IMG/VR virus record: IMGVR_UViG_3300033145_000890
Span: 1 to 45,582 of that record
DNA from: a virus
Strand: one strand, 5' to 3'
Length of the DNA stretch: 45,582 bases
Shown here one piece after another: positions 6,680-40,962 of the stretch; position 1 is the first letter of the stretch, and each line of letters opens with the position of its first letter. The notes under the pieces were generated by a model. That model ran no database searches. It saw only the letters and a list, made by a program, of their open reading frames with translations, and was not told where the DNA came from. A program made the translations under genes and the position numbers.

Positions 6680-6697
6680 ACGGGAGGGAATGAAAAA

Positions 6698-7342: not shown

Positions 7343-7371
7343 ACCAACGCCCTAGGCATGGCTAAGATTAC

Positions 7372-7443: not shown

Positions 7444-7452
7444 GCACAAACC

Positions 7453-7472
7453 GCCCCGGCTGAAGCCGGGGC
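7453..7472 (+). terminator. GC-rich intergenic hairpin 2
   Basis: GCCCCGGC (7453-7460) and GCCGGGGC (7465-7472) form a perfect 8-bp stem closed by TGAA. No U tract follows. It is a variant of the hairpins at 6656 and 8073 and immediately precedes the GGAGGG site of the next gene. Confidence 0.6.
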
Positions 7473-7488
7473 AGAGGAGGGTTAAAAC

Positions 7489-7737
7489 ATGACAAAGTCA
7501 GAATACATCAAACAACACCCAAAATCATTTTTGGCTGAGGCATTAACATCTGCAAACTGGCCAAACAACACAGAAATTTGCCTTGTCAGCGGCCTCAACG
7601 CACCCTGGAACAAAAACTCAAACCTTTACAAGGCTTTGCAAGGCACGAGCGGAGAGTATGTTGTGGGTGGCCACCTGAAAAGGGGCACAGAGGGCTGGCA
7701 TTACGCAATAAAAAAAACAATTAACAAGGGAGCATAA
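7489..7737 (+). CDS. Hypothetical protein, 82 residues
   Basis: ATG 7489 follows GGAGGG. The product has a mid-region of Trp/Asn/Gly-rich sequence and ends basic; no membrane segment or Cys cluster. No family recognised. It ends where the next small gene begins (stop and ATG nearly abut), so the genes are co-translated. Confidence 0.65.
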   Translation: MTKSEYIKQHPKSFLAEALTSANWPNNTEICLVSGLNAPWNKNSNLYKALQGTSGEYVVGGHLKRGTEGWHYAIKKTINKGA

Positions 7738-22649: not shown

Positions 22650-24410
22650 GTGCTTTACTGGGGCCTTAGAGACTATCAATTACCACCTATGATTTGGGAT
22701 TCTGAGCCGCCTGATGTTTGTGAAGGTGGGCGGGATCATATTTGGGGGGATGAAAACATCAAAGCCTATGTACCTAAAAGAGATCATGACGGAGCTAATG
22801 GTTTTAGCGACACAAGAGGAACGGAACCATCAAGGGCGGGTTTTGTTACTGAATTGAAACAAGGTCAATTCTGCCAAGTTTGCGGAGCATGGCGGGGATG
22901 CCTAGGCCTTGAGCCCACACCTGAGCTATTTATTAAACACATGGTCGAAATCTTCCGTGAGGTACGCAGGGTTTTGAGAAGCGATGGAAGTTGCTGGCTT
23001 AATTTAGGTGACTCGATGCAAAAAAAACAGCTTCAAATGATCCCTGCCCGTGTTGCCCTTGCGCTTCAGGCCGATGGCTGGTGGCTACGGTCTGCAATGC
23101 CATGGGTAAAAAGGAGCGCGATGCCAGAAAGCTGTTCAGACCGTCCGGCGAGTGCATTGGAGTATATGTTTCTGCTTACAAAATCGGCCAAGTATTATTT
23201 TGATATGCAGGCGATACGGAAAGAGCATAAACCGGAAAGTACGGAAAGATATAAACATAACTTTAACCGTGAGAAAATAAGCGGTTCTGGATATGTAATG
23301 GCAGATAGTTACAGTTCTGTTTATGGCAACCCTTCAGGCCGCAACTTCCGCAATACCGACCTATTCTTTGAATCCCTTGAACCGCCGTTTGGGGCTATTT
23401 TTGCCGGTGATGAACTTGTGGGTTTGGACATTAACCCGAAGGGATTTTCTGAAGCGCATTTTGCAACATTTCCGCCGAGGTTGCCGGAGGTTGCTATCTT
23501 TGCCGGAACGAGTGAAAAAGGATGCTGTGCTGAGTGTGGTGCTCCATGGGAGAGAAAAAAGGTTGACAAACATACTGACAGTTGCGATACTGATAGTTAT
23601 GAAAACAAAGCAATGCAAAGTGTGTCTGAAGCCGAAACCGATCAATCAATTTCGACCCCCAACCCGAAAGACATGCAATCAATGTGCGGCCAAGCAACGC
23701 ATATTGGATTGGTGGGCAAACAGAGAACAGAACCTGGCGAAAGGGAAGCTATACAGGGATACCAACAAGAAAAAAGTGAGGGTAAAGAAAAAAAGATATT
23801 CCCAAACGGATCAGGGCCGAAAGAATATGAGAGCGGGATGCAATCGGTATTATCAGAAACTAACGGGGACGGAAGAGGGCAGGAAGAAGGTCAGGGAAAA
23901 GTCTCGGAAATATTCAAAGACGGAGAAAGGCCAAATCAACGGAAGAATCAGATGCAGTCGGAGAAGGGCACTTTTGGTGGGAGCAATAGGAAACTTTTCA
24001 GCCGACGACTGGATAAATATACTGAGGAAACAGAAAAACAAGTGCCATTATTGTCAAAAACAATTCAATCAGAAAAGACTCCCCACGATAGACCATGTAA
24101 TACCTCTAACGAAGGGCGGAAACCACGACAAGACGAATATAGTGGCGGCTTGCCGTCCGTGCAATTCAAAGAAGTGGAACCGTCTCTTGTAAAATCCAAA
24201 ACAACCGGCTGGAAACCCATCTGTAAATGCAACACCGATAAAAAACCTTGCACCATACTTGACCCCTTCGGCGGGGCCATGACAACGGCAATCGTAGCGC
24301 ATAAGCACAATAGAAATTTTATTATGATTGAGCTATCAAAGAAATATATTGACAATATTGGAATACCGAGAATTGAAAATGAGACAAGACAACTAAAATT
24401 ATTCAGTTAA
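22650..24410 (+). CDS. Second DNA methyltransferase (N4-cytosine or N6-adenine), main body
   Basis: 586 residues if translation restarts at the GTG directly behind the TAA. It holds YWGLRDY, the core helix region (ACRVALALQADGWWLRSAMPWVKRSAMPESC-like, about 130-160), a Cys ribbon (GCCAECGAPW, about 290), the closing motif TTGWKPICKCN and DPFGGAMTTAI (the AdoMet-binding FxGxG), and a clamp-type tail QLKLF. Order and motifs fit the permuted beta class. The stretch between the ribbon and GWKPICKC is about 200 residues, far longer than usual, and contains an HNH gene in another frame. GTG right after the stop allows re-initiation and two-piece assembly; alternatively the gene is dead. Confidence 0.78.
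   Translation: MLYWGLRDYQLPPMIWDSEPPDVCEGGRDHIWGDENIKAYVPKRDHDGANGFSDTRGTEPSRAGFVTELKQGQFCQVCGAWRGCLGLEPTPELFIKHMVEIFREVRRVLRSDGSCWLNLGDSMQKKQLQMIPARVALALQADGWWLRSAMPWVKRSAMPESCSDRPASALEYMFLLTKSAKYYFDMQAIRKEHKPESTERYKHNFNREKISGSGYVMADSYSSVYGNPSGRNFRNTDLFFESLEPPFGAIFAGDELVGLDINPKGFSEAHFATFPPRLPEVAIFAGTSEKGCCAECGAPWERKKVDKHTDSCDTDSYENKAMQSVSEAETDQSISTPNPKDMQSMCGQATHIGLVGKQRTEPGEREAIQGYQQEKSEGKEKKIFPNGSGPKEYESGMQSVLSETNGDGRGQEEGQGKVSEIFKDGERPNQRKNQMQSEKGTFGGSNRKLFSRRLDKYTEETEKQVPLLSKTIQSEKTPHDRPCNTSNEGRKPRQDEYSGGLPSVQFKEVEPSLVKSKTTGWKPICKCNTDKKPCTILDPFGGAMTTAIVAHKHNRNFIMIELSKKYIDNIGIPRIENETRQLKLFS
23599..24192 (+). CDS. HNH endonuclease nested in the methyltransferase gene, other frame
   Basis: 197 residues from ATG 23599. 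An N-terminal zinc ribbon (KQCKVCLKPKPINQF, CNQCAAK), a basic repeat region (Lys/Tyr-rich, about 60-130), then the HNH domain CHYCQKQF ... DHVIPLTKGGNHDKTN ... CRPCNSKKW (about 165-197). It is the standard architecture of phage free-standing HNH enzymes, reading +1 to the methyltransferase, whose frame stays open throughout. No clear ribosome-binding site. It looks like a homing gene inserted into the linker so that the host protein still reads through. Confidence 0.78.
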   Translation: MKTKQCKVCLKPKPINQFRPPTRKTCNQCAAKQRILDWWANREQNLAKGKLYRDTNKKKVRVKKKRYSQTDQGRKNMRAGCNRYYQKLTGTEEGRKKVREKSRKYSKTEKGQINGRIRCSRRRALLVGAIGNFSADDWINILRKQKNKCHYCQKQFNQKRLPTIDHVIPLTKGGNHDKTNIVAACRPCNSKKWNRLL

Positions 24411-25665: not shown

Positions 25666-26085
25666 TTACCTCTTTATATTCTTGGGCGCGTGAGGCGAAA
25701 CCTTCCATCGAAGCCCAAACAACGGATTGTCCCCCTGGTTTTCGATCTCATCAGCCCAATTAATTACGGATTCGTCTTCACCGTCAAAGGCTGACACTCC
25801 GACATAATACCGACCTTTTACATTGAGTGTCACGGTATAGGATAAACCGGTCAATCCGTCTGCAATCATTGTTGGAGTCGTCTTGTCTGGATCTGTGTCA
25901 GCATTGACCAGGTGTATTCGATACTGAATGGTTCCGGTTATCGGATCGCCGTCAACATCAGTCGTAACGGCACTCCATTCGACAGTAGCTTCATTCGCGT
26001 TGTGAAAGGTAACTTCGGCATTTGCAAAACTTGACATTGCCACCATCGTTAGTAAACAAATAAATAAAGCTATAAACTTTTTCAT
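25666..26085 (-). CDS. Exported fibronectin-III-like protein with signal peptide, 139 residues
   Basis: ATG 26085 is preferred to the TTG six bases upstream because GGAG sits eight bases from it. The first 21 residues are a Sec signal peptide (MKKFIALFICLLTMVAMSSF then ANA). The rest is a beta-sandwich of FN3 type (VTFHNANEATVEWSAV, GTIQYRIHLVNAD, RYYVGVSAFDGE). FN3-type folds in phages bind cell surfaces; here it would be exported. Placed inside the lysis cluster. Confidence 0.78.
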   Translation of the reverse strand: MKKFIALFICLLTMVAMSSFANAEVTFHNANEATVEWSAVTTDVDGDPITGTIQYRIHLVNADTDPDKTTPTMIADGLTGLSYTVTLNVKGRYYVGVSAFDGEDESVINWADEIENQGDNPLFGLRWKVSPHAPKNIKR

Positions 26086-26495
26086 GTCCAACTCTCCTTT
26101 ATTAACAAATGAAACTGTTTGTATCGACCCATTATATCCAGCCAGTTATTAAAGGTCTGGCCTGAACTTAAAACTGCCCTATTATCCTTTAATACTCCAA
26201 TCTCACCACCAAGAATGATACAGCCCTCAGTGTGATCGACTGTGTTGCCTCTGTGAAATAAAATGTTTGACCTACCAGGGACATTTTCAACTTCAAATGT
26301 TGTTGCAAATCTCTGAGATATAATCCTTTGACACTCGTAACATCCGGCAGGAATACAACTTACCCTCTTGACGTTTCCAAATTCGGGAGGTTCCAGGGTC
26401 CAGCAAAATATTTCCGTCTGGATTAAAAGAATCCCGAACATGCCGAACCGGAAATTGTCTTCAAGGCGAATGATTTTTACGAGTGGGTCGATCAT
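26082..26495 (-). CDS. DUF5675 protein, likely endolysin-type domain, 137 residues
   Basis: FCWTLEPPEFGNVKRVSCIPAG (about 31-52, quoted in part), TFEVENVPGRSNILFHRGN and EGCIILGG match DUF5675, a phage family whose conserved His/Cys/Asp residues and lysis-gene setting suggest peptidoglycan cleavage. No signal peptide, so it would need a holin. It overlaps the upstream membrane gene. Confidence 0.7.
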   Translation of the reverse strand: MIDPLVKIIRLEDNFRFGMFGILLIQTEIFCWTLEPPEFGNVKRVSCIPAGCYECQRIISQRFATTFEVENVPGRSNILFHRGNTVDHTEGCIILGGEIGVLKDNRAVLSSGQTFNNWLDIMGRYKQFHLLIKESWT

Positions 26496-26845
26496 TTGCC
26501 ATCATCCTTTTTAAATTCCGCAGCAAATACCGCCAAGCTCTTATCAATCCCGGCAATATTCTTTTTTATTCCGTCAAAATCCTCACTTCCTTTGTCGAGT
26601 CGCTTTTCATGAGAATTCAACACACTTTTATATGTTGCCAAGCGCGAATCAACGCCTGTTTTCCATTTGAAGCACTCTGAAGATCCCAAGACACTGTGAA
26701 CGTCAGGTTGCTCGATTACGGGTTGCTCTTTGGTTTGATTGCCATTTCGATTTTTCAGCCAGTCAAATATGATTCTACCACTAATACCGACTCCGGTTCC
26801 CATGGCCACAAGTCCAACATAATTTATCAGGTTTGGATCACTCAT
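26492..26845 (-). CDS. Membrane-anchored coiled-coil protein, spanin- or holin-like, 117 residues
   Basis: An N-terminal membrane helix (YVGLVAMGTGVGISGRIIFD) is followed by a long hydrophilic helical tail (SVLNSHEKRLDKGSEDF...). This shape suits an i-spanin or accessory holin next to the lysin gene. The start overlaps the 35-residue gene; no family name can be given. Confidence 0.6.
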   Translation of the reverse strand: MSDPNLINYVGLVAMGTGVGISGRIIFDWLKNRNGNQTKEQPVIEQPDVHSVLGSSECFKWKTGVDSRLATYKSVLNSHEKRLDKGSEDFDGIKKNIAGIDKSLAVFAAEFKKDDGK

Positions 26846-26945
26846 TTTTCGCCTCTGTTTGTTGACAGCCCAGGCAGCTCGTATTATTCGCTCTTAGCCA
26901 TCTCGCCCTGGTTGCGAGTCGGTTAGGGCTATCGGTTCCGGGCAT
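26838..26945 (-). CDS. Small protein with CLGC motif, 35 residues
   Basis: From ATG 26945 (shared GGAG with an ATG five bases upstream) the product ends ANNTSCLGCQQTEAKNE and its TGA overlaps the next start. A second frame from ATG 26950 gives only 18 residues. Missed by length filters. Confidence 0.45.
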   Translation of the reverse strand: MPGTDSPNRLATRARWLRANNTSCLGCQQTEAKNE

Positions 26946-26951
26946 TCCATT

Positions 26952-27209
26952 TTAATCTCCAGTTCCGATTTCTACATCAGGCATGTTCATAAACATAATA
27001 CCCAAAGCTTGTTCAACCATTCCCGGTCTGCCTCTACCATCACAAATCATTTCAATATCACCGTCTTTGCTCAATTTGAAAGTAATCATATCATCTTTCT
27101 GAGCTTTTATAGTATAAATGGTTTGATCAGGCAAAATGATTTCTCTTTTCACGGAGCAAGCCATGAGAGATAAACTCAATATAATTATAAGTCCCCATCG
27201 TGCTACCAT
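26952..27209 (-). CDS. Small lipoprotein, o-spanin candidate, 85 residues
   Basis: GGGAGG precedes ATG 27209. The signal peptide ends in the lipobox SLMAC (Cys about 18), so a short lipoprotein would sit in the membrane. It ends DVEIGTGD. Location directly before the lysis genes fits an outer-membrane spanin (Rz1-like), but it lacks the usual proline-rich tail. Confidence 0.65.
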   Translation of the reverse strand: MVARWGLIIILSLSLMACSVKREIILPDQTIYTIKAQKDDMITFKLSKDGDIEMICDGRGRPGMVEQALGIMFMNMPDVEIGTGD

Positions 27210-28024
27210 GAAGACCTCCCTCCACCATAAACTGTGCCATTCACAAGAGCAGCGTTTGTGATTTGTTTTAAAGATATATCATCAATATATACTGTACCAA
27301 CCTGATTCGCTAGCCTAAATCCTATTTCTAAATCAACACACCCCGCTTGAACAAACCAAGCATGGGTAGCTTTGGTATAGTCTGTTCCTACTTCAAGGTC
27401 TGATCCAGAGAAAGGATATGAAGCATGTGTTCTATCATAGGCAAATGTAATTACATACGCACCACTAACACCATCACTTCTAAAATAACCTGAGAAAAGA
27501 ACATACTCTCCTCCAACCGTAGCAACGGGAGTGCCAGTATCATAATTATCAATTTTTACCTCGCCAGGAGAACTTTCAGATACAAATTTAATAGCATAAT
27601 TTCCACTGTTATTTGTTGCGGTAGATTCTGCTCTATGAGTGGCATCATGAATTGCTTTTCTCCAATCAGTCCAAGTATCAGAAGTTCCATCATCGACTTC
27701 AGCACCACTATCAAAATCGTCACCAGTTCCACCAACCTCAAGACTTGTATTAGTTAGAAGCTCACCCCCCAGAGCTGATTCATATATAACCTCATTGTCT
27801 TGAAGGGCATTTATATCTGATATCTGGACTAACTCCAAAATACCAGAAGTGCCATTATCTTTTTCATCCTTAATTACGGCAGCAACTCCAGAGTCCACAC
27901 CTGCTAAAGCATTAGTAGCTGTCCATCCTCCAGCCTGAGCATCAAAGCGGATATATCGTTGTCCACAAAGAGCAGGGATAGAAGTTGCAATTAGTAAAAA
28001 TATGATAATAAGTAATCGTTTCAT
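27203..28024 (-). CDS. Exported beta-sandwich protein with signal peptide, 273 residues
   Basis: The N-terminus (MKRLLIIIFLLIATSIPALC then GQ) is a signal peptide with a Cys near its cleavage point. Residues about 90-255 look like a carbohydrate-binding beta-sandwich (DFDSGAEVDDGTSDTW, SGYFRSDGVSGAYVITF, TVYIDDISLKQIT). GGGAG upstream. A sugar-binding, surface-active protein made as a leader peptide form; downstream of a beta-helix protein in the spike cassette. Confidence 0.75.
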   Translation of the reverse strand: MKRLLIIIFLLIATSIPALCGQRYIRFDAQAGGWTATNALAGVDSGVAAVIKDEKDNGTSGILELVQISDINALQDNEVIYESALGGELLTNTSLEVGGTGDDFDSGAEVDDGTSDTWTDWRKAIHDATHRAESTATNNSGNYAIKFVSESSPGEVKIDNYDTGTPVATVGGEYVLFSGYFRSDGVSGAYVITFAYDRTHASYPFSGSDLEVGTDYTKATHAWFVQAGCVDLEIGFRLANQVGTVYIDDISLKQITNAALVNGTVYGGGRSSW

Positions 28025-28027
28025 TTA

Positions 28028-29872
28028 TCAGCTCCCTTTGTCAGCCCAAATACCATTAATAGAATCGCAGATCCAACAACCATCAAGAGCGACAGTAAAG
28101 TCACTATGGCAGATGATAGATGAATAGATGGGCGAATTTTCACACCAAATTCTGTGACCATCTGTCCCAGTAGGTATACCATCCAATATGACTTGAGTGG
28201 AACCGTCAGGCAGAAGATAAAGATCATGAGCAGCCGCACCAATACCATCTTCAAATTTCACTTTAAGCACACCTTCGGAACCGTCATAAGATGAAATGTC
28301 AGGAAATCCAAATGTAATATCACTCGCACCATCCCAACCCTGAGTAGTAATTAAAGTGTTGGTGACTTCCACTATCGTAAGATCATATATTGGACCAGTA
28401 GAGTCTGTTAATATAGCAGGATATAATCTCCTAAGAGTACCAGAAACAGTAATAACCGGAGGTGTGTCTGCTACGCCAGTCAATAGCCAAGTTGTCGTAC
28501 CTGTAAATATTCTACCATTTCTGAGGATATAGAAATCAATATCAGTATCCGTTGCACTTAAAGCGGTATCAATTATAAGGTTATCATCATCCGTTACAGC
28601 AGTAATGTAGTACAACCCATAATCAGCTGTAGTTGTACCGCCATAAATAAGAACTACATCTCCAATCTGGCAGGTTGTAAGAAAGTCGTCGTCTGCCGCA
28701 CCATCAGATGAGATTGTGGTTGAGGTATTGGATTCACCATCGGTTACGGAGTCTTGCTGAGTTACCCCAAAAAGATTGTAATAGACATTGTTGGCAATAA
28801 TAACTCCATACGGTGTGGTTATTCCATTACTATTTACTTGATTTACACCCAAATAAATAATTCCACCAGTTCCTAATATACTATCACCAACTATGGTATT
28901 ACCGTGAGCATAACTCGTACCTGTAGCTGCAGAAAAATTAGCCCATTCACCATCACCATCAGTAGTAGTTACATTAATAAAATTGTTCATATAATAGGCA
29001 GTATCACCGGAACCTGTAAAAAGCCCGTACATCACACCGGCAGCCCCAACAGCATTTATTATGTTTTCATTGACATAGTTAATAGCGGCATGGGCATAAA
29101 CCGAATATCCCACACTGACGCCAGTATGCTCTGAATCGGTGGTAATTCTATTTTCTATTGCATATAGAATACTGCCAGCACCGGCAACGTGTGCAAGAGC
29201 AGAAGTCATGAATGCGCCGGTAGCGTCCTGATCTAAGACAATTGTATTATCTACACACTCAAATGGATGGGCAGCAGAGTTCCAGATCGCATATACCGCG
29301 CTATCTCCCGTTTGGGTGACGGTGATGGTATTGTTTAAAAGTCTGAAATTACCATCACCAATATTAATACCGTATAAACCAAAAACACTTCCGGCCTTGT
29401 TTTCAACTTCAATAATACAATTTTTAACCGTGTTATAATCGGATGCGCTGTCATTGTTTGACCAGATTACTTCATCATTGGTAGTTTCCGCAGCACTTAA
29501 CGTTGTCTTAAACCCATCTAACGTACAGCCTGAATAGGTGCTAAATGATATGGTTGTACCCTTTCCCTGTGTGATGATAGTATTTTCAGCGGAACCAAAG
29601 GATCTTAGCGTAATGTTATCCCCTGTAAAGGTGACAGCCTCATTGTAAGTTCCTTCTGCTACAATGATGGTATCCCACGCATCAGCGACAGCCATAGCCT
29701 CCCCTATGGTCGTATATTCAGAGGTGGGACATACAAGAAGAATGTTATCACAAAACCCACCTGGGAATACCCAATCTCCACCTGGATCAGGAGCAGGCCC
29801 ACAAATGGCGAATGATTGTACTGGCAATACCAAAAGAAATAAAACAACAAATATAGATAATATCCGCTTCAT
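28028..29872 (-). CDS. Exported beta-helix protein with signal peptide, 614 residues
   Basis: The N-terminus (MKRILSIFVVLFLLVLPVQS then FA) is a Sec signal peptide. The mature start is Cys/Pro/Gly-rich (CGPAPDPGGDWVFPGGFC). Then many short strands (residues about 50-420: YTTIGEAMAVADAW, TVKNCIIEVENK, NRITTDSEHTG) form a right-handed parallel beta-helix of the pectate-lyase type, typical of phage spikes and depolymerases. No catalytic residues can be pinned down. It would be a second spike-like protein. Confidence 0.8.
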   Translation of the reverse strand: MKRILSIFVVLFLLVLPVQSFAICGPAPDPGGDWVFPGGFCDNILLVCPTSEYTTIGEAMAVADAWDTIIVAEGTYNEAVTFTGDNITLRSFGSAENTIITQGKGTTISFSTYSGCTLDGFKTTLSAAETTNDEVIWSNNDSASDYNTVKNCIIEVENKAGSVFGLYGINIGDGNFRLLNNTITVTQTGDSAVYAIWNSAAHPFECVDNTIVLDQDATGAFMTSALAHVAGAGSILYAIENRITTDSEHTGVSVGYSVYAHAAINYVNENIINAVGAAGVMYGLFTGSGDTAYYMNNFINVTTTDGDGEWANFSAATGTSYAHGNTIVGDSILGTGGIIYLGVNQVNSNGITTPYGVIIANNVYYNLFGVTQQDSVTDGESNTSTTISSDGAADDDFLTTCQIGDVVLIYGGTTTADYGLYYITAVTDDDNLIIDTALSATDTDIDFYILRNGRIFTGTTTWLLTGVADTPPVITVSGTLRRLYPAILTDSTGPIYDLTIVEVTNTLITTQGWDGASDITFGFPDISSYDGSEGVLKVKFEDGIGAAAHDLYLLPDGSTQVILDGIPTGTDGHRIWCENSPIYSSIICHSDFTVALDGCWICDSINGIWADKGS

Positions 29873-29880
29873 AATTTCAC

Positions 29881-30396
29881 CTATCTTCTTTCAAAAGTTA
29901 ACCTGACAGTGAACATACCATCAGCGGTGTCTTGATCAATCACTTTTAATGTCAATCGACTCCTAACAGTGGGAAAATAGTTGGTATGGAGACCGGCCCT
30001 TGTAAGAAATAAATTTGGGTAACATGCCCGTTTTAAAGTCGCATGAACCATAAGATATCCGGCATAGGGAGTTGTGGCATTATCCTCGCATCCCAAAAGA
30101 TCCATATCATCTTCATCAAGTAAAAAAATACTCGCTTCATCAGGTTGTGTAGCCCCTGGAATTATCTCTACCCATGTTAAACACCAACCTTTAACTTTCT
30201 CGAAATTGGCCCATGTCATTGTCATGTCGTCACCAGACGGGTTCCCGACACATACATATTCAAGTGTCCGAGTGGGATTAGAGTTCAATCTATCTTCACC
30301 CACGTCTACAACCGTTCCTTGAACAACGCTAGCTGCTTTCACTCCTGTCGGGAATATTAACAGAAGCAATGATACGATAATAATTAATCTTTTCAT
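29881..30396 (-). CDS. Exported Cys-containing protein with signal peptide, 171 residues
   Basis: GGAG precedes ATG 30396. The N-terminus (MKRLIIIVSLLLLIFPTGVK then AA) is a signal peptide. The mature protein has four Cys (about 48, 73, 101, 124) that could form disulphides in the periplasm, and a beta-rich profile. It sits between the spike and the beta-helix protein. No family recognised. Confidence 0.75.
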   Translation of the reverse strand: MKRLIIIVSLLLLIFPTGVKAASVVQGTVVDVGEDRLNSNPTRTLEYVCVGNPSGDDMTMTWANFEKVKGWCLTWVEIIPGATQPDEASIFLLDEDDMDLLGCEDNATTPYAGYLMVHATLKRACYPNLFLTRAGLHTNYFPTVRSRLTLKVIDQDTADGMFTVRLTFERR

Positions 30397-30456
30397 ACTA
30401 GTCTCCTTTATTTGTTTATTAAGTTCCTAAACAACTTATAAATATGGTATTAATGC

Positions 30457-32829
30457 TTATGTATTATCGCTTCTTGCCATTTCATACCATTTTCCATCAG
30501 CCTTTTGAATCAAAGTAAGCGTATCTGTATCAATCATATCAAAATTTACGCTACCATTTAGAAAAATATTTGTACCATCCGTGATAGTTATGGTATGCTC
30601 AGAAATTATTTTTATCTCTTTCCCTTCCACTCCATCATCAAAATGTGTTATTGCTGCTACTCCTCCTGTAAGAAAGAAATTTCCATATAATACCGTGGGT
30701 GTCCCGTCATTTGCCAATGTCAGTGGAATTCCGTGACTTTTTGGTGTTCCTAATTGCATCCATCGACCTCGATCCTTCGAATATACATAGGTTGCTTGAT
30801 CAAAAGAATTTAGTATAACAGATCCCCCTCCTACATTATGGCAACTAGCAGTATGAGGAATAGCAATCGTATTTCCTGCTGCTGAAGTACAAATAATGGT
30901 AATCTTTCGCCCCCTCATAATCGTTGCTTTTGATATAGGGGTTGTAGCATCAAGGGTAATTGCGCTTGCTGCTGTAATATAAACAATCGGAGTGCTTGGA
31001 AGTATTATTTCTCCGGCCAACAAAGTTTGGGGAGCTCCTTCTTGTTTTAAATCATTGGTCATATAGGTATTAAAATTCTTGCCGTCGATTATAAAACCTA
31101 CTTCCTGGTATATAGAATCACCCGACTCCCTTTGATTATCCATATCTGTTGTATTGTTATACAAATCTCCTATGCTAAATCTGTTGGAATTCCGGGTCCC
31201 TCCATCTTCAATTCGAACTCCATATTTACAGTTTTGAATTGTGCCAATTGTCCCCATATTACTAACAACCTGAGTAGCTGACCCATCTTCTCCTATTTGC
31301 AGACCAACCCCATAGCCATCTATTAACATTGGATTGACTATATTTCTAATACCGGCAACCAATAGCCCTATTTTGCTCTCGTCAGTTGTCGCACCTGCAG
31401 CTCTCTCTATTTCCAATCCAGCAATATAATTCAACGCACCCAGCCTAACTCCCCAATCTCCCTGGACCTTCCCCCCAAATACTCTTGTATATTGCAGATC
31501 CATACTCCATATTCCAGCAGTGGCAGGATTTGAGTATGGATTATACATGTAGACTTCCCCAGGTCTATCTACGCCGACATTGACAGATATGGCATGATCT
31601 ACTGAAATGCCTGTGTCTTGTGTCTGGCGTGTAGATACATTACGCATTGTGATATCAAAGGCGTTGCCGATTACTAGTATGCCTTCTTCAGCCGTGTATC
31701 CGACACTAACATATTCCAGCGTAACTTCTCTTAGAAAGCCCCTTGTACCTTCGTAATCTGCGCTACCATCTATTAAGATACCTTCAGCGCATTGATAGTC
31801 AATAGATGGTTGTAGTGTAACATGACCAAGATAAACATTTTCCAAGTTATCAAAGCCATTTGTGTCAGGATCCCACCCAGTTGTTGGATCTCCTCCTATT
31901 TCAATCATTGGTTCTGTATTGCTTCCGGTGTAGGTGAGAATAGCCTGACCCATATCACCAGACCAACGCCCACCACCACCTTGCGAAATACCTTTTAAGC
32001 CACCATTAACTCTTCGCAATTTCAAGGTTGATGTTATGGTACGAGGACCAGTCAGCACTATTTTACCGGTATCAACAGCGTCCTGTAAGTCTGGCCACCA
32101 GATTCCTTTGACATACCTTTCAGATCCAAATCCTACTGTGGTAATACTTGCACCAAATACTTCATACTCACCTACTTCAAAAGGCCCATTTATTGTCAAT
32201 GTTCCAGCACCGTCAAGAATAGCACCATCTTCAATTACAACATTGCAATTGTCAGTTATTTCAATATTTGTCGTGAAAGTATAAGTGGTAGTTGCTGCTC
32301 CTGAATTGTGAGCAAAATATAACGTGGTATTAACAACAGCTCCTACTTCTGCAAGAATATCATATACCGAATTGCCACCCCCGACAGCACCTTGATCCAC
32401 TTCAGTATAATCGGGGAAGTATCGTGAATATGGGGTTGTAAGGGGAGTATAATATAATACAGAAGGGACATAATATGTTTGGACCCCATGAGAATTTAAA
32501 ACTTTTAACGAATAATCACCGTCAACAAGTAGCGTTACTGGAGAACCAGCATATTGTGGTACTCCCCCGGCACTCGTATGAATAGGCTGAGGTACGGCAA
32601 CAATAGTACCATCTTCTTGCTGTACGCTTAATATCTTTTGATTTCCAACTATTTCTGGATCAAGGTCTGGTTTCCCGACATAAATATCAGCACTTGATAG
32701 CGCCCTACCCCTACTTGTATCTGGAAAATATTCGGGTGATAATTTGACGACATTGTAAGCATATGCAAATTGAGATAAAAAGAAAAATATTGCTAAGTAT
32801 AGAATTGTTTTGAAAGATTTTCTTATCAT
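30457..32829 (-). CDS. Tailspike with P22-type head-binding domain and a signal peptide, 790 residues
   Basis: I place the start at ATG 32829, where GGAG lies six bases upstream; the ATG at 32841 has no site. Residues 1-24 are a Sec-type signal peptide (MIRKSFKTILYLAIFFFLSQ then FAYA). The mature N-terminus (YNVVKLSPEYFPDTSRGRAL, ADIYVGKPDLDPEIVGNQ, PQPIHTSAGGVPQYAG, YYVPSVLYYTP) matches the P22 tailspike head-binding domain. The rest is a long beta-helix (about 180-600), then a short C-terminal beta region (about 620-790). It should bind the tail hub and cleave or bind host O-antigen-like sugars. A signal peptide on such a protein is most unusual, since assembly normally occurs in the cytoplasm. 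Confidence 0.88.
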   Translation of the reverse strand: MIRKSFKTILYLAIFFFLSQFAYAYNVVKLSPEYFPDTSRGRALSSADIYVGKPDLDPEIVGNQKILSVQQEDGTIVAVPQPIHTSAGGVPQYAGSPVTLLVDGDYSLKVLNSHGVQTYYVPSVLYYTPLTTPYSRYFPDYTEVDQGAVGGGNSVYDILAEVGAVVNTTLYFAHNSGAATTTYTFTTNIEITDNCNVVIEDGAILDGAGTLTINGPFEVGEYEVFGASITTVGFGSERYVKGIWWPDLQDAVDTGKIVLTGPRTITSTLKLRRVNGGLKGISQGGGGRWSGDMGQAILTYTGSNTEPMIEIGGDPTTGWDPDTNGFDNLENVYLGHVTLQPSIDYQCAEGILIDGSADYEGTRGFLREVTLEYVSVGYTAEEGILVIGNAFDITMRNVSTRQTQDTGISVDHAISVNVGVDRPGEVYMYNPYSNPATAGIWSMDLQYTRVFGGKVQGDWGVRLGALNYIAGLEIERAAGATTDESKIGLLVAGIRNIVNPMLIDGYGVGLQIGEDGSATQVVSNMGTIGTIQNCKYGVRIEDGGTRNSNRFSIGDLYNNTTDMDNQRESGDSIYQEVGFIIDGKNFNTYMTNDLKQEGAPQTLLAGEIILPSTPIVYITAASAITLDATTPISKATIMRGRKITIICTSAAGNTIAIPHTASCHNVGGGSVILNSFDQATYVYSKDRGRWMQLGTPKSHGIPLTLANDGTPTVLYGNFFLTGGVAAITHFDDGVEGKEIKIISEHTITITDGTNIFLNGSVNFDMIDTDTLTLIQKADGKWYEMARSDNT

Positions 32830-32841: not shown

Positions 32842-35181
32842 TTATTGTTGATCTCGTAGTTTATCTTGCGTATAAACTCCGTATTTAAGAAGCTGATGAT
32901 TGACCATTTTTTTAGAGATTTCGGCAGTACAACCCTCTGCCATAGACATTATTGTTTGTGCAAGCTCAGGGTCATATATTGCTCTGCGCATTAATATCTC
33001 GATATCATTTTTAGGGCCTCTTCCTGTCACGTCATAAATTCTTTTTGCAATATTTCTTGAAGCACTATATTTCCAGCCAGCGCCAATTTGGATAAATCCA
33101 AGCTGAGTAATGGATTCTACCAGACTTTTAACCGGCCCTTTTGCACTTTCGGCAATCGTTTGTTCTACCGCAGATAAAAGCTTATGATAATCAGTTAACG
33201 CTTTGATTTTCTTGGGCTCATTTTTATACAACACTTTTATTGCAGGCATATAATCCATAACAATTTGCTTTGCCTTGCCGATATCTTTTATCGGAACTCC
33301 CAGCGGGTCTACATATTTACCCTTCATGGATTCAAAAAGGAAATCTTTGAACGAATCTTTTATTCCTTCTATGGCAGCCTTATTACCCTTGATTCCTGGA
33401 GTATTAAGTAAGTCTTTTGCCACCTTTCGACTGGTCTTTGAGCTTGAAAAGACATTTTTTATAACTTTTTCAACATCACTGTTTAATATTTTTGAAGCGG
33501 TAGTTTTGTTAAATGCTTTTATATTTTTGACTGACACATCTGCTATATGCCCAGAAGCTACAACATCCTTAAATTTATCAAACAACCCATATTTTTGTAA
33601 AACGGATTTATTCTTAAGCAACCATTGTCTTGAAGCCTCTGTTTTTAATGTTCCTTCAGGGGTCAATCTTCCTGTTAAGAGATCCTGTGCGGCATAGTCT
33701 TCTATTAATTTTCCAGACTTGTCTTTTCCAACAGCCCTTATCAAATCATCAGCGGCATCCATGCCCTTTTGTTTAAAAAACCTGCCGGGTATATCTGAGA
33801 ATGGAATCCTATTCCCGGCGATAAGATTTCCGGGCCTTAACACTTCATTAACAGTTCCCTTTCTAAACGTGTCATGATATTTGATAAACGCACTTTTAGC
33901 AGAATTGTATGCGTCAACTATAGATTCATTCCCTGACCTTTCTAGTTGATCCATAGATTCATCAATGCCTTTTCTTAACATTTTAAATCTTCTCGATAGC
34001 TTAAAGTTCGGATTAGCACCCCTTTCAGCGTCACGAATGGCCTCTCCAATTTGGGGCCTCCAGTCATTCCATAATTTTTCAAATGGGATTTCTCCGGGCG
34101 ATTTCTTACCCTTCGGAAATACAGTATCTCGTATTTGTCTTATTATCCCGGTAGGAAGCGTTTCAGGCCCACCCCCTTTTTTCTTGTAATCCACAATGAC
34201 ATTTTTTAATGTTTTCATTAACGATTGTGAAGGAACGGTTGTCTCTGGAATTGATTTATATAGTGTATTAACGTATTTTTTCGCTTTCCCCATCGGCCCT
34301 CTTAATTCTTTGAGAAGTGTCTCTCCAACCTCTTGAGCACCTTGCCCTTGAAGCGATGCCGCTTTTTCAGTTGCTATTTTTACAGCAGCCTCAGATTGTT
34401 TCGAAAGGTTTTGTTCAAATGCTTCCACTCCAGTCCTTGCTTCAGCAGCCGAACCTTTTTTCGCTTGCCCAAACTCAAGGCTTTCCTTATATTCTCCTAA
34501 AAGCTCCTTAGCCCTTTTTATAACCTCTGCTTTATTCAAGGAGGGAGAAAACTTTTTAAGGCGTGCAATAAACTCTTTTACACCTGGAACTTTTTGCCCA
34601 AGCGCCCAAATGCCTTTTAATCCTTTTCCTATTGCTGTAGGAACACCCTGGCCAATCATTTCGTATGTTGCACCTGTACCGATATCTTCAACAGTCTGAG
34701 CAGCCCTTTCTCCAATATCAAGAGGCTCAGACAGGCCCAACCATTCGTCCAATGCTCTTGCCGTGCTTTTACCCATTACATACCCGCCAGTCCCACCAGC
34801 AAGCATTCCGACTGGTCCACCGGGCGCACCAGCGGTACTTCCAACGGTCATCCCTCCCACTTCAAGAGCAGGAGTATAAAATTTTGATAACAATTGTTTT
34901 GTATCTTCAGACATTGGGACACTCGCATCAGGAAGGCCCAGAATATCATACTCAGCGCTTATCATTTCGTCCATATCAAGCTCAGGCTCTTCAGGTAGAG
35001 TTATATGACCACGGCTGACCAATGCGTCAAAAGCCTTTGTTTGGATTTCGTTTAGATTTCCAGATTTATGGCTTTCAATGATTGATTCAATTTCAGTGTC
35101 ACGCATAAATCCTTTTGGTAATTCAGGAGTGCTTTTTTGGATAGTATCACGTACAAATCCTTCTGGTAAGGTTGAAGCCAT
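32842..35181 (-). CDS. DNA ejection protein, gp16-like, 779 residues
   Basis: Between the gp20-like gene and the tailspike, as in P22. The N-terminus has LPEGFVRDT and LPKGFMRDT repeats; a hydrophobic Gly-rich stretch (GGMTVGSTAGAPGGPVGML, about residues 100-120) may insert in membranes; the remainder is helical and Lys-rich. It would be carried in the virion and ejected to help DNA cross the envelope. It overlaps the upstream gene by 1 base. Confidence 0.75.
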   Translation of the reverse strand: MASTLPEGFVRDTIQKSTPELPKGFMRDTEIESIIESHKSGNLNEIQTKAFDALVSRGHITLPEEPELDMDEMISAEYDILGLPDASVPMSEDTKQLLSKFYTPALEVGGMTVGSTAGAPGGPVGMLAGGTGGYVMGKSTARALDEWLGLSEPLDIGERAAQTVEDIGTGATYEMIGQGVPTAIGKGLKGIWALGQKVPGVKEFIARLKKFSPSLNKAEVIKRAKELLGEYKESLEFGQAKKGSAAEARTGVEAFEQNLSKQSEAAVKIATEKAASLQGQGAQEVGETLLKELRGPMGKAKKYVNTLYKSIPETTVPSQSLMKTLKNVIVDYKKKGGGPETLPTGIIRQIRDTVFPKGKKSPGEIPFEKLWNDWRPQIGEAIRDAERGANPNFKLSRRFKMLRKGIDESMDQLERSGNESIVDAYNSAKSAFIKYHDTFRKGTVNEVLRPGNLIAGNRIPFSDIPGRFFKQKGMDAADDLIRAVGKDKSGKLIEDYAAQDLLTGRLTPEGTLKTEASRQWLLKNKSVLQKYGLFDKFKDVVASGHIADVSVKNIKAFNKTTASKILNSDVEKVIKNVFSSSKTSRKVAKDLLNTPGIKGNKAAIEGIKDSFKDFLFESMKGKYVDPLGVPIKDIGKAKQIVMDYMPAIKVLYKNEPKKIKALTDYHKLLSAVEQTIAESAKGPVKSLVESITQLGFIQIGAGWKYSASRNIAKRIYDVTGRGPKNDIEILMRRAIYDPELAQTIMSMAEGCTAEISKKMVNHQLLKYGVYTQDKLRDQQ

Positions 35182-36515
35182 TAGAAATTCTCCCAGTTGC
35201 CGTTTCTAAATATCATTTTAGCGCCTCCTGGTCCGGTAGCGGTATCACCTTCTTCGTCTGACATAGCTGATGTTTTTTGCGGGTATGGCTCTCTTCTTAA
35301 TGCCTCATCTCGTTTTTTAACAACCAGTACCATTTGTTGTATTGCTGCACCCATTTGTTCGGGACTTTGCGCTGTGTTAAGATTGTGCAGTGCTCTCATG
35401 TATTTCGAGTCAGACAATACGCCAGATCCCATCAAGACTCTTTCTGTCTCTGCTATGATGTCGTCTCTTAAATTATTAAAAGCAACAACCTTCGCATCAC
35501 CAGTTTGAAGCCTCCAGGCGTTAATACCCTTATTGAAAATCGGAATCATTCCATTATTTAAAGCTGCCGCCTTTCCTTTTAGCTCTTCAAACAATGGGTC
35601 TATGCCAGCAATCAAAGCAATAGTCCTTAAATTAGCGGAATCCGTTTTATATTTTATGTTAGCTTCTGCATCAATTAGGCTAAAATCAGGTGCAATTTGT
35701 GCAATGAGTCCCGCGATTCTACCTTTTTGACCACCCCTCCTGGATAGCTTATTAAAATCTAACTTTCCATCCACAATGCGCTGTGCCAATATTAAATCAA
35801 GATCCGGGTTGCCACCGGTTGTTTCCTTATCAATAGCTTTTTGGTAATATTCCCGCCTCTTGGAACCTTCTGGAAATTCGTCTAACTTAGTGAATAGCTT
35901 TGTTAGTTTAGTGGGTGCAAACGTTTTGTCAGCTTCCTTGGCCTGTTCTTCGGTTAAAAACCCTTTTTCTATATCATACTGTACTTTACCTGCTTTCGAA
36001 AGGGGCTTGTCCTCATCTTTCTGAGTCGTAATATCTTCATATCGCTTCCATAGTTCTTTATCTGCCAACAATGCAAACTCGCGTTCAACATTCTTTTGGG
36101 CCGTTTCCGGGTCCGATTGGAGCAAAGATTCAAAATTATCGAGCTTGGCCTGTTCTTGCGGATCGATCCCGTCTTGGGCAAACTGATCTCTTAATCTCCC
36201 TAATATTTGGGGAGCTTGTGTAAAATCAGCAGAGGCAGAGAATAAAGCATTTTTATAAGCGTCCGCAGAGCCGCCGGGTAATTGCATTTCTACAATGTCT
36301 TTAATCTTTGAGCCGAGTTCCGGGTATTTCCCGCCCACTGCCCGTATTTTTTTAATATCACCGGACTCAAAAGCCGCTGAAATCTCATCCCGCATTGTCT
36401 GCTCTTTTTGCTCCGCCTTCTTGCGCTCCCCAACTTCTCCCACGGTTTTAGCCAGTCCCATAAGTCCGGGGCCAAAGTCGGTTCCGGGTATAACCGTGAA
36501 TGGATTTTGTGGCAT
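35181..36515 (-). CDS. DNA ejection protein, gp20-like, 444 residues
   Basis: N-terminus FTVIPGTDFGPGLMGLAKTV and a helical Gln/Asp-rich middle fit the P22 gp20-type ejection protein (471). Low hydrophobicity overall, helical bundle-like. Position between the gp7-like gene (and HNH) and the gp16-like gene is that of gene 20. Sequence similarity is weak by eye, so the call rests on order. Confidence 0.65.
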   Translation of the reverse strand: MPQNPFTVIPGTDFGPGLMGLAKTVGEVGERKKAEQKEQTMRDEISAAFESGDIKKIRAVGGKYPELGSKIKDIVEMQLPGGSADAYKNALFSASADFTQAPQILGRLRDQFAQDGIDPQEQAKLDNFESLLQSDPETAQKNVEREFALLADKELWKRYEDITTQKDEDKPLSKAGKVQYDIEKGFLTEEQAKEADKTFAPTKLTKLFTKLDEFPEGSKRREYYQKAIDKETTGGNPDLDLILAQRIVDGKLDFNKLSRRGGQKGRIAGLIAQIAPDFSLIDAEANIKYKTDSANLRTIALIAGIDPLFEELKGKAAALNNGMIPIFNKGINAWRLQTGDAKVVAFNNLRDDIIAETERVLMGSGVLSDSKYMRALHNLNTAQSPEQMGAAIQQMVLVVKKRDEALRREPYPQKTSAMSDEEGDTATGPGGAKMIFRNGNWENF

Positions 36516-37069
36516 TATTGACTCCTTATCAATTTATTTTCCAATGCGTATTTTTTTGCTGGACTTGAATTATCACAATCTTGCCAATTAAGACATTGTT
36601 CGGCGGCAAGTCTCGCCAAAACAGCCTCGTCTTTATTATTATAGCGACCTATTTTCTTATGTTTTTTGTTAGATGTAATATATGCGCACCATTTATTTTC
36701 ATTTGAATCAAAACAAACACCCTTAACTCCAGATTTGTTATCTTTAGGATTACCACAATTCCTCATATTACAAGACTGTGAAACCTCTCTTAGGTTTTTT
36801 ATTCGATTATCTGATGGATTTCTATTTATATGGTCAATACCATTCTCTGGTAAATATCCATGATGATATAACCATGCAAGTCTATGCGCAAAATAGTTTT
36901 TATAGTTAATGCATATCGTAATACGACCACGATTTTTACATCCTGTTATTTTATTGCTTCTGCCAGAAATCCTATTTTTACTTCTTAATTTATACCTGTA
37001 TCTAAAAATGCCTGTTTGTGGATCATAACTTAATAATTCTTTTAATTTCTCTTGCGTAAGCTTTTCCAT
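36515..37069 (-). CDS. HNH homing endonuclease, 184 residues
   Basis: ATG 37069 follows AAGGAGG. The product begins with a small N-domain, then an HNH core AHRLAWLYHHGYLPENGIDH (about 87-106) with INRNPSDNRIKNLREVSQS, and an AP2-like DNA-binding end (SGVKGVCFDSNENKWCAYI). It is a clear relative of the HNH at 43475-44008 (same end AAEQCL-W-D-SSPA-YAL). It splits the gp7-like and gp20-like genes, typical of mobile homing genes. Its ribosome-binding site lies in a hairpin loop. Confidence 0.9.
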   Translation of the reverse strand: MEKLTQEKLKELLSYDPQTGIFRYRYKLRSKNRISGRSNKITGCKNRGRITICINYKNYFAHRLAWLYHHGYLPENGIDHINRNPSDNRIKNLREVSQSCNMRNCGNPKDNKSGVKGVCFDSNENKWCAYITSNKKHKKIGRYNNKDEAVLARLAAEQCLNWQDCDNSSPAKKYALENKLIRSQ

Positions 37070-37089
37070 AATGCCTCCTTTAGCATTAT
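37068..37089 (-). promoter_or_regulatory. Hairpin hiding the start of the HNH gene
   Basis: On the minus strand ATAATGC (37089-37083) pairs with GCATTAT (37074-37068), a perfect 7-bp stem whose 8-base loop holds AAAGGAG and whose 3' arm contains part of the ATG. Translation would require opening the stem. A similar design lies before the other HNH gene at 44002-44055. Confidence 0.65.
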
Positions 37090-37102
37090 CCTTGATTGAT
37101 GT

Positions 37103-37155
37103 GTGCGGAAAGCTGGCAAGGATTTCCAACGATTCGGGGGCTACCCTATCCGCAC
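37103..37155 (-). ncRNA. Candidate three-way-junction leader RNA
   Basis: GTGCGGA (37155-37149 on the minus strand) pairs with TCCGCAC (37109-37103) as a 7-bp outer stem. Inside are a short GGG/CCC hairpin and a second GTTGG/CCAGC hairpin. It fills the spacer between the gp7-like and HNH genes. The overall shape resembles the small RNA at 12868-12967, also beside an HNH gene; no sequence identity is claimed. Confidence 0.4.
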
Positions 37156-37181
37156 TTAAATATCTAACATTATATGATAAA

Positions 37182-38024
37182 TTATTCAACACAAATCTTT
37201 GGTAATATTCCGAGTTTGTCATAAAGAACAAACAACCAACCATCTTTTATGATCACGCAATCTTTTCGTTTAGCATACACCTCATCCGCCATTGCGCCAA
37301 TTGTTTGTCCTGATAATCCAAGACGTTCCGCAATTGAATTCCATTTAAACGAATATATATTAAAACCCTTGTGTGTACATAGTAGTTTAATATTCTTTTT
37401 AAGGCGGCGGTCTGAAAACATTCCTGCTCCATAGGCTGCAACCCCAAGCGTACCAAGGCCCATAAGATTTCCAAAACCCTGCTGAGTTCCGGTCTGTTGT
37501 GCCTGGGCTCCTGCAACTTGACCCTGAGCCAGAGTTTGCCCTATGCCTGATGTTTGTTGAGCGATTTGATTTGCGTTGCTTGATAAGCCTGCCAGACCTG
37601 TTAATCCTTGTAATTGCTGATTGTATGATTGTAAAAGTGCCTGATTCTGAAGTTGAGTATTATAATCGTAAAGATTCCCCTGAACATTCCCGGACCTGAA
37701 ACCTCCGGTCATGGCCGCATTCCTTAGAATCGATTCTTCCCCCATTTCTTGACCACCCATCATGGCTTTATACAAAGGAGATGATATGGCACGGTCTATA
37801 AGTTCCTGTTGATTTCCTGTGCCACCTTCAAGCCCATATAAACCACCAAGACCCTGAAGTGCCCCCTCTCTAAACTGTTGAGGGATTGCCTCTCTTTCTT
37901 TCAGATAGTCAAGTGCTTCTCGTTGATATTTTGCTTGTATATTAGAAGCATCCACCGCAGCATCCGCAGCATCGTCTCCGCCGCCACCAAAAACATCACT
38001 TACAAAATCACTCACGAAACCCAT
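37182..38024 (-). CDS. Virion protein, gp7-like ejection protein with an S74-like end, 280 residues
   Basis: N-terminus is Gly/Asp/Ala-rich; the middle is Gln/Ala/Gly-rich (TQLQNQALLQSYNQQLQGL). The end (FSDRRLKKNIKLLCTHKGF, YAKRKDCVIIKDGWLFVLYD) matches the peptidase S74/intramolecular-chaperone-like signature common at C-termini of phage tail and ejection proteins. Position is that of P22 gene 7. Followed by the HNH homing gene. Confidence 0.75.
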   Translation of the reverse strand: MGFVSDFVSDVFGGGGDDAADAAVDASNIQAKYQREALDYLKEREAIPQQFREGALQGLGGLYGLEGGTGNQQELIDRAISSPLYKAMMGGQEMGEESILRNAAMTGGFRSGNVQGNLYDYNTQLQNQALLQSYNQQLQGLTGLAGLSSNANQIAQQTSGIGQTLAQGQVAGAQAQQTGTQQGFGNLMGLGTLGVAAYGAGMFSDRRLKKNIKLLCTHKGFNIYSFKWNSIAERLGLSGQTIGAMADEVYAKRKDCVIIKDGWLFVLYDKLGILPKICVE

Positions 38025-38696: not shown

Positions 38697-39557
38697 CTAT
38701 GCGTTCATTACATCTATGAGAATTGCTGTAAGATTAAGCGTATCTACTGACAATGTCGGCGTATTAGCATCTATAGTCCTAATTGATACCTCAATATAGT
38801 CATTAGCCGTAAGCTCCAGCATTGCATGACCTGCCTTGGCAAAAAAGTAGTTGGCCTTGGGTGTTTGAAATTCTACCTTGCCATGAGCGGTCTCCGTTCC
38901 GCTTACCCTAATTGTTATTTCCGTGTCATCATCATTAGACGTGTTGCCCCCAGAAAGACCCCATAATATCAGATAGTGACCCGCTGGATAAACTGTGATC
39001 TTCCCATTCCCATCATGTTCCGCATTGTGTAATATACCGTCACCCATATCAGCATCACTAATCGGATACCAAGTATTTTGTACGGCATTGGCTTGAGACC
39101 AGCCGATTCCCGTTCCGTGACAGCATCCGTGGGCTACTGGTGGTCGTATGGTCGGGACACGGTATAGCTCTGTTATCATCTTGACTTTTAAATTATCAAG
39201 ACTTTGCGGAACATTAGAAGGTGCCATATGGATCCGATTAAGGATATCCTCTACCATCCCATCATATGATTTGGGAGATTCCAGGGATAGTAACTTTTTC
39301 TCCAACTCACTGATACGAGATTCAAAATTCTTATTTACGGGCTCTGAAAAAAACAACTTTTTAATATCATTTATAGCAGATTCATAATCGAGATTGTTAT
39401 CTATCTCAACATCAAGTATATTTGCTAAAAGAATAAGGTTATCAAGGATGTTTAGATAATCCTCTACAAGAGCATCCGGCCAGTCAGTAAGACTCTTTAA
39501 ATCAAGAGCACTTAAAGCCAAACCTCTGAGACGTTCTATAGTTTTTGGATCAGGCAT
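38697..39557 (-). CDS. Tail needle-like protein with TNF/C1q-like end, 286 residues
   Basis: Residues 1-120 are helical and coiled-coil-like (FESRISELEKKLLSLES). A short Cys-His turn (GCCHGTGIGWSQ) leads to a beta-sandwich (about 170-286: KITVYPAGHYLILWGLSGG, ANYFFAKAGHAMLELTANDY) of the TNF/C1q-like type. Sf6 needle has a TNF-like knob on a coiled coil, and the gene follows the gp10-like gene, as P22 gene 26 does. So it may plug the tail. Sequence likeness to gp26 itself is not visible. Confidence 0.55.
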   Translation of the reverse strand: MPDPKTIERLRGLALSALDLKSLTDWPDALVEDYLNILDNLILLANILDVEIDNNLDYESAINDIKKLFFSEPVNKNFESRISELEKKLLSLESPKSYDGMVEDILNRIHMAPSNVPQSLDNLKVKMITELYRVPTIRPPVAHGCCHGTGIGWSQANAVQNTWYPISDADMGDGILHNAEHDGNGKITVYPAGHYLILWGLSGGNTSNDDDTEITIRVSGTETAHGKVEFQTPKANYFFAKAGHAMLELTANDYIEVSIRTIDANTPTLSVDTLNLTAILIDVMNA

Positions 39558-40962
39558 ATGTTAACCTCATTAGGGCAAATGCCATTCTTGATTTAGAGAC
39601 TCCCCGGAATCTGAACCCCATCCAACTATTACAAATGCCGAGTCGTCTTAGAATAAAACTCTGGCCGTATTCAGCCGGTGCACCATACTGCATCCAATGC
39701 TCTCCACCCCATATTACCCCATCATATGTCATTGAGATGGCCACCGTCGCGTCAAGGGTCGTGGTATGGCCGGGAATAGTCTCTATTTTTAGTTCATCAA
39801 CAGAGAACGTCTCCAGGTCCACGAGTGGGGTATATAATAACCACTCGGTGATAGCATCATATTGAGTGCTAACCTCGTTATCTAAAACACCTATTTTGGA
39901 TCCTAACCTATCCCCATAAACCCACTTTCCGGATCGAGCATCGAGTATGCCGTTGATTCCCCGATAAATCGTATTTCCTGTACCAGTCTTTAACAGACTC
40001 CATGCAATTTCTTTCCCAAATTCAGCAGCAATAGATTCATTGAAACATAACGTTTCTTCAGGAAGATGAATCAAAATAAATGTAACGTCATTCTCGGTTC
40101 TGCACTCCATCCGCATATCCGACAGTTCCGGTTCGGAATATTTCGCCAAAATCTTATCAATTTCTCGGGTAGAAACTTTTGTAGCACTACCAATACCAAT
40201 AGCATAAACAGATACTGCACCATCTCGATATCCGCCAGTGATATAAAACTTCCCACCTGATTCACACTTTGCATGAGTTGCTACTATTCCGATCTTTTGC
40301 GCTCTTGTCACTACTCGCTGAAATGCAAAATTAGCCGTCGCAACATTAACAAAATATTCAAGAGAATACCGACCAAACACCATGACTTTATTATCTTGGG
40401 TCTTGGCCAGTCCAAGAGACGGGTCAGGCATAAACTCAGCAGTTGCAAACATTAAAGGATCAATACTTGTTTCGTCGGTAAGCTCGGTGTGAAACAGATA
40501 CTCGCCGTCGGTCATGAAATAATAATTATCAACCCAAACCCCATCAATAGGTGATCCAACATCAGCATTAATTACTTGTTGGAATCCACCAATAGGACTA
40601 TAAAGGTAAAAACCACCATCTGCTATAATTCCTTGAGTGTTAAAACTATAGAAATCAATAAGGCGTGCTTGTGAAGCTCCTGGAATATCACCCAATTCCA
40701 CAACAGTCCCATCGACTGCAACTGATATTAGTTTAGTTCCCGATACCCGATAATGGGCAGAAAATCGTTCGTTATAAGTTCCGCCCCGGTCCACACCCTT
40801 TCCGTCCGCTAATTTTGTTAAACCGGGATATCCAATCATGTACCCCTTTGCACCTAAGATATCACGGTTTATCGCGTACATATTGACCGGCAGGGCATCT
40901 CTATAATCGGTTTCTATCCCGATCTTATCGCCTTTTATGAGTGTGATGGGTGCTACTGGCAT
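39550..40962 (-). CDS. Packaged-DNA stabilisation protein, gp10-like (tail hub)
   Basis: 470 residues, P22 gp10 size (472). N-terminus (DYRDALPVNMYAINRDILGA, GYPGLTKLADGKG) and NERFSAHYRVSGTKLISVA follow gp10. It forms the distal tail hub that binds tailspikes and needle. One base of overlap with the gp4-like stop and eight with the needle-like start; matches P22 gene order. Confidence 0.9.
   Translation of the reverse strand: MPVAPITLIKGDKIGIETDYRDALPVNMYAINRDILGAKGYMIGYPGLTKLADGKGVDRGGTYNERFSAHYRVSGTKLISVAVDGTVVELGDIPGASQARLIDFYSFNTQGIIADGGFYLYSPIGGFQQVINADVGSPIDGVWVDNYYFMTDGEYLFHTELTDETSIDPLMFATAEFMPDPSLGLAKTQDNKVMVFGRYSLEYFVNVATANFAFQRVVTRAQKIGIVATHAKCESGGKFYITGGYRDGAVSVYAIGIGSATKVSTREIDKILAKYSEPELSDMRMECRTENDVTFILIHLPEETLCFNESIAAEFGKEIAWSLLKTGTGNTIYRGINGILDARSGKWVYGDRLGSKIGVLDNEVSTQYDAITEWLLYTPLVDLETFSVDELKIETIPGHTTTLDATVAISMTYDGVIWGGEHWMQYGAPAEYGQSFILRRLGICNSWMGFRFRGVSKSRMAFALMRLTYA

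Follow-up and report, generated by a model that had tools for sequence, protein, structure and literature searches.

The tailspike gene of an uncultured P22-like podovirus, related to Salmonella phage P22, was found to begin with a predicted general secretory (Sec) signal peptide placed directly in front of the P22-type head-binding domain (HBD). The gene lies in an IMG/VR virus record of 45,582 bases (IMGVR_UViG_3300033145_000890), which was analysed over its full length and is called the window here. Genes following the spike also carry predicted leaders (Table 1). Export of the spike and these companions is strongly supported by the sequence, namely by ten leaders with a cleavage site at a fixed position, by the lack of an alternative start codon in the window and by co-variation with the gene that follows the spike.

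The leader MIRKSFKTILYLAIFFFLSQFAYA is followed after the predicted cleavage site by YNVV (mature start YNVVKL), and the HBD begins at once after it. The initial annotation had proposed a signal peptide ending in AYA right before the HBD, together with leaders on five neighbouring genes, each with its own ribosome-binding site (RBS). All six open reading frames (ORFs) were present and preceded by an RBS, which is GGAG for the spike start at 32829. Leaders were called with a rule set of our own that considers charge, hydrophobic core and an A-x-A site or lipobox. With E. coli K-12 proteins as a calibration set, it recovered 14 of the 24 that are exported, against 3 of 39 membrane proteins and 3 of 93 cytoplasmic ones, and is thus specific but misses many true leaders. 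All six ORFs were called, in agreement with the annotation, while the few other calls in the window were weak, lacked an RBS or belonged to multi-span proteins. The spike leader has the basic n-region, hydrophobic h-region and A-x-A c-region of a Sec signal peptide, and the spike thereby departs from ordinary P22-type tailspikes, which have no N-terminal leader and are synthesized in the cytoplasm. No in-frame ATG, GTG or TTG occurs between codon 1 and codon 144 of the spike gene, and codon 144 already lies beyond the HBD, so a leaderless HBD spike cannot arise from such starts and this possibility was ruled out for the window. Several relatives have in-frame GTG or TTG codons near the border of leader and HBD, so that the argument is firm for the window only.

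The late region shows a P22-like order of coat, scaffold, portal, terminase, gp4-like and gp10-like hub proteins, ejection genes and tailspike, and the gp7-like, gp20-like and gp16-like ejection genes complete a P22-like virion gene set. The HBD profile matched the P22 and Sf6 spikes in the Protein Data Bank (PDB) with a best E of 1.6e-25. In an AlphaFold model the HBD had a predicted local distance difference test (pLDDT) score of about 95, the leader formed a separate helix (residues 2-20), and the modelled HBD matched the P22 and Sf6 head-binding domains by fold (E about 1e-9 to 1e-8). The solved P22 spike chains aligned from their extreme N-terminus with residues 26-129 of the window spike. 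The HBD alone matched solved structures; in a test for a beta-helix with an endoglycosidase active site the Phage_depo_C match remained below threshold. An HBD search of the record returned this gene only, and each of the other leader-bearing contigs described below likewise held a single HBD gene. A second, leaderless HBD gene that could provide the virion spike was found in none of them.

Relatives were gathered from IMG/VR by means of the HBD, gp10 and gp7. Among 45 HBD spikes examined, 10 had a leader and 35, those of cultured phages among them, had none. The ten leaders come from distinct contigs (the window, L002, L003, L004, L031, L035, L048, L051, L071 and L082), with the cleavage sites AYA, AYA, AYA, SFG, CYA, AQA, SIA, ACA, SFA and VLA in the same order. 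In all ten, the first conserved HBD residue follows the A-x-A-like site at a distance of exactly six residues; thirteen other offsets each fit only 0-2 of the ten. Each leader contains 2-4 K/R, no D/E and a hydrophobic core, although the median pairwise identity is only about 35%. None contains the RR motif of the twin-arginine translocation (Tat) pathway, and that of L082 holds a possible lipobox (VSGC), which leaves its type ambiguous. The window and L003 share 75% identity over leader plus HBD, while the rest of the spike differs, and the conserved HBD is as expected if selection for tail docking has continued.

The HBD starts at residue 23-31 in the leader-bearing spikes and at residue 2-12 in the leaderless ones, of which L030 (MTAVIRLGPEFF) is an example. 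With the fixed position of the site, this means that cleavage would restore the usual N-terminus of P22-type spikes. The initial annotation had considered that relatives might lack the leader because of a different start. Many relatives do lack it, but they start where cleavage would leave the N-terminus, so that the difference is a real presence or absence of the leader and no mis-called start.

The leader of the spike varies together with that of the next gene. Counting genes of at least 150 amino acids (aa) on the same strand, the first gene after the spike encodes a signal peptide in every genome whose spike has a leader (6/6) and in none whose spike lacks one (0/9), related genomes being included in both groups. 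Altogether, 13 of the 15 genes of this size after leader-bearing spikes had a leader, and one of the two exceptions, a 751-aa protein of L002, does have one and was excluded solely by a hydrophobic stretch further in. The structural genes upstream of the spike in related contigs gave only 6 calls among 358, and four of these came from a single L034 cluster.

A backbone tree calculated from gp10 required four changes of leader state, and a single leader-bearing clade was rejected (approximately unbiased (AU) test, p 9.3e-7); L035, with a leader, and L030, without, are sisters in it. In the tree of the short HBD a single leader clade was not rejected (AU p 0.27). A single gain of the leader is therefore rejected by the first tree but not by the second. 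The leader was gained or lost more than once, or else backbones have exchanged leader-bearing spikes.

We propose, giving the whole scheme about an even chance, that the spike and its companions are exported by Sec, trimmed, folded in the periplasm and added to the tails at lysis. The spike and several adhesin-like companions would be made as Sec precursors and would cross the inner membrane late in infection. Leader peptidase would cut at the A-x-A site, so that the mature spike would begin like an ordinary P22-type spike. It and the companions would then fold in the periplasm while DNA-filled heads with the tail hub form in the cytoplasm from hub proteins, homologues of gp4 and gp10, that carry no leaders; the ejection proteins are leaderless as well. 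Lysis would join both pools, the HBD would dock on the hub, and virions would receive their spikes at or after lysis. The conserved docking domain suggests that virions use the spike, and the leader that the spike leaves the cytoplasm; lysis is then the obvious moment for the two to meet. In vitro, P22 heads that lack spikes can take up P22 tailspikes.

The assembly of tailed phages is generally placed in the cytoplasm. The results suggest a periplasmic route for spikes that is not known for tailed phages. In its wider form, which we hold more tentatively and put a little short of an even chance, a group of tailed double-stranded DNA phages sends its receptor-binding proteins through Sec, completes its virions outside the cytoplasm and switches route by gain or loss of leaders on a whole adhesin module. 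If this were true, it would alter the view of assembly, of what an infected cell displays before lysis and of possible blocks to superinfection. A leader just before an HBD would also be a simple sequence mark by which such phages could be found.

Several points weigh against this proposal. Spikes exported before attachment must in part be lost or degraded by periplasmic proteases. The leader calls rest on a home-made rule. A host-directed genome scan yielded a single distant contig of a Neptunomonas metagenome-assembled genome with a truncated N-terminus, which gives no host for the phage. Conservation of the HBD is no proof that exported copies reach virions. The contrast in the next gene, which includes related genomes, is weaker than the raw counts, and leader-bearing HBDs may possibly have had a single origin and been swapped between backbones later. 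Leaders are moreover not all-or-none, as the AH02-group phages combine leaderless spikes with a leader on a tail-fibre-like gene further along.

The main rival explanation gives the exported proteins, spike and companions alike, mainly a free role in the periplasm or at the surface, attachment to virions being secondary or absent. By cutting or masking the receptor polysaccharide during its synthesis, they could keep superinfecting phages and released progeny from being trapped. The nearest precedent is WceF of Pantoea stewartii (PMC7949094, PDB 6tgf), a bacterial glycosidase that combines the tailspike fold and a head domain like that of P22 with a Tat leader. The proposed site of its action on exopolysaccharide is either the periplasm, during transfer, or the biofilm (PMC7949094). 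The HBD profile of the window matched the WceF structure 6tgf (E 2e-7; by fold, E about 2e-4). WceF and the window spike are both tailspike-like, and each has an export signal at the N-terminus and a P22-like head domain; WceF shows that such a fold can be exported, though by another pathway. It differs in being a single bacterial protein of an exopolysaccharide cluster that uses Tat and is not accompanied by phage genes, whereas the window encodes a set of proteins with Sec leaders and its spike lies in a phage late region. A free role would also fit the several companions that have no virion-like match. It is opposed by the finding that the leader-bearing spike is the only HBD gene of the record, so that the virion would be spikeless unless it is used, and by the conservation of the HBD while the rest of the spike differs; WceF, where an HBD-like fold persists without a virion, weakens this objection. 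We consider a free role unlikely, though well worth keeping in view. The sequence is compatible with dressing of particles at lysis as well as with masking of the receptor and cannot separate the two.

Two further explanations are both improbable, to the same degree. The leader could remain uncleaved and serve in the virion as a hydrophobic N-terminal arm that anchors the spike at the hub or enters the membrane during entry. The leader does adjoin the hub-docking domain, and hydrophobic arms may stabilise interfaces of this kind. An arm would nevertheless hardly explain why leaders of such low identity keep A-x-A-like sites at one exact position in 10/10 cases, why similar leaders stand on unrelated companion families and a lipobox on the product of 26952-27209, or how leaderless relatives dock without one. 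Alternatively, two products might be made, a leaderless cytoplasmic spike from a rarer start or failed targeting, which goes to virions, and an exported fraction. The GTG and TTG codons near the border in several relatives would permit this, and with inefficient targeting part of the precursor would stay in the cytoplasm; in the window, by contrast, none of the three start codons occurs before codon 144, and an uncleaved precursor would keep its leader.

An artefact of wrong start codons or chance hydrophobic stretches is conceivable with easily mis-called starts and a home-made rule, but very improbable in view of the RBS at the leader start, the lack of a later start in the window, the identical placement on ten contigs and the low background upstream of the spike. 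For the window it is already refuted, barring a non-standard start. One probable case of this kind was met elsewhere: in Escherichia phage JEP4 (L023, 2492-2585) and about 48 E. coli genomes, P22-like spikes have a Tat-like in-frame upstream extension, MNRRLFFKTIASLSAVIPFSS. It has no Shine-Dalgarno sequence, relatives are given a later start in RefSeq, and variation in the stretch is too low for a test; the start annotated in JEP4 is probably mis-called.

Disulphide formation, which had been suggested as a purpose of export, found no support for the spike, since the number of cysteines is not raised in leader-bearing spikes. The window spike has five, the six leader-bearing spikes counted have 3-7 with no obvious common positions, and leaderless spikes have 0-12.

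Among known systems, the tailspikes P22 gp9, Sf6 gp14 and HK620 share with the window the PF09008 HBD in sequence and fold, the P22-like late gene order, with the ejection genes as neighbours, and a variable C-terminal part. They differ in having no leader, and the cultured comparators start 2-12 residues before the HBD. The coat proteins pIII and pVIII of filamentous phages are virion proteins with Sec leaders, as here, and assemble in the inner membrane without lysis; the window represents a tailed double-stranded DNA phage instead. Lambda Lom is a signal-peptide phage gene near tail-fibre genes (PMC12309495). Unlike the window spike, Lom and other exported phage-encoded proteins of the host surface are not fused to a virion-docking domain. 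The initial annotation had named no described system of this kind. For phage spikes this held, as no phage spike with an export leader was found in the literature, a weak negative because it covers open-access full texts only; it did not mention bacterial WceF.

Leaders also occur on tail-fibre-like proteins of cultured phages. Gp17 of phage AH02 (L005, 8163-9257) has a Sec-type leader, MKKLIMVLALLSPMCFA followed by APYD, from an internal start with its own RBS, and gp25 of Pseudomonas phage AF (L091, 5001-6023) has the leader MKRFLLAMALLPALAFA followed by GPSD. Both resemble the window companions in their Sec-type leaders, have tail-fibre-type repeats and belong to phages cultured on Pseudomonas, which makes the idea testable now. 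They differ from the window spike in that they are not P22-type spikes, are annotated as hypothetical, with no account of their export in the open-access texts covered, and belong to phages whose own spikes are leaderless. Tail-fibre-like proteins with Sec-type leaders were also seen in L008 (10209-11336) and L011 (6028-7287), again in phages with leaderless spikes.

Table 1. Position and properties of the spike gene, its leader and neighbouring or reference genes in the window
Feature	Position	Strand	Properties
P22-type tailspike	30457..32829	-	790 aa; HBD residues 27-129; PF09008 E 1.5e-15, PDB profile and fold matches
Predicted Sec signal peptide of spike	32758..32829	-	24 codons; cleavage AYA/Y
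gp16-like ejection protein	32842..35181	-	directly upstream of spike; no leader; phrog_770 E 1.3e-3
gp10-like head-closure protein	39550..40962	-	no leader; phrog_578 E 1.4e-90; used for backbone tree
171-aa companion	29881..30396	-	Sec leader MKRLIIIVSLLLLIFPTGVKA/ASVV; no family found; AlphaFold model poor (pLDDT 47)
614-aa companion	28028..29872	-	Sec leader MKRILSIFVVLFLLVLPVQSFA/ICGP
273-aa companion	27203..28024	-	Sec leader MKRLLIIIFLLIATSIPALCG/QRYI, or cleavage after SIPA; no family found
85-aa predicted lipoprotein	26952..27209	-	lipobox LMA/C; beside DUF5675 and small leaderless gene
139-aa protein	25666..26085	-	Sec leader MKKFIALFICLLTMVAMSSFANA/EVTF; Ig-like at best, sub-threshold Kre9_KNH match

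For the 171-aa protein a scan of IMG/VR gave none and phages gave two marginal matches only, while a 75% identical homologue directly after the spike of L002 was located by its position. The first approximately 345 residues of the 614-aa protein are conserved in L002 and its C-terminal part is divergent; no match was obtained in phage, PDB or Pfam searches. It has three conserved cysteines near the mature N-terminus (24, 41 and 48), and disulphide formation could apply to this protein. Some companions look like virion fibres, since short parts of those in L004 and L003 matched tail-fibre PHROGs (E 1e-7 to 2e-6). Two genes within the run have no leader, 26082-26495 (DUF5675) and 26492-26845. 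The 85-aa product was confirmed as a predicted lipoprotein by its lipobox and may belong to lysis and not to adhesion, whereas the earlier label of a fibronectin type III (FN3) domain for the 139-aa protein found no support.

Three minor observations were made on other genes. In L034, four consecutive signal-peptide genes (5046-7533) lie between the coat region and gp10; one of them encodes an Lcl_C domain (PF07603 E 5.9e-25) and is weakly similar to a family of surface adhesins. The structural gene cluster of the window contains two genes for HNH endonucleases (phrog_99), at 36515-37243 and 43475-44008 on the minus strand. A further HNH endonuclease ORF (23323-24192, plus strand; PF14279 E 7.5e-14) lies wholly inside an N6/N4 DNA methylase gene (22650-24410, plus strand; PF01555 E 2.3e-30), in a different reading frame, and both frames are open.

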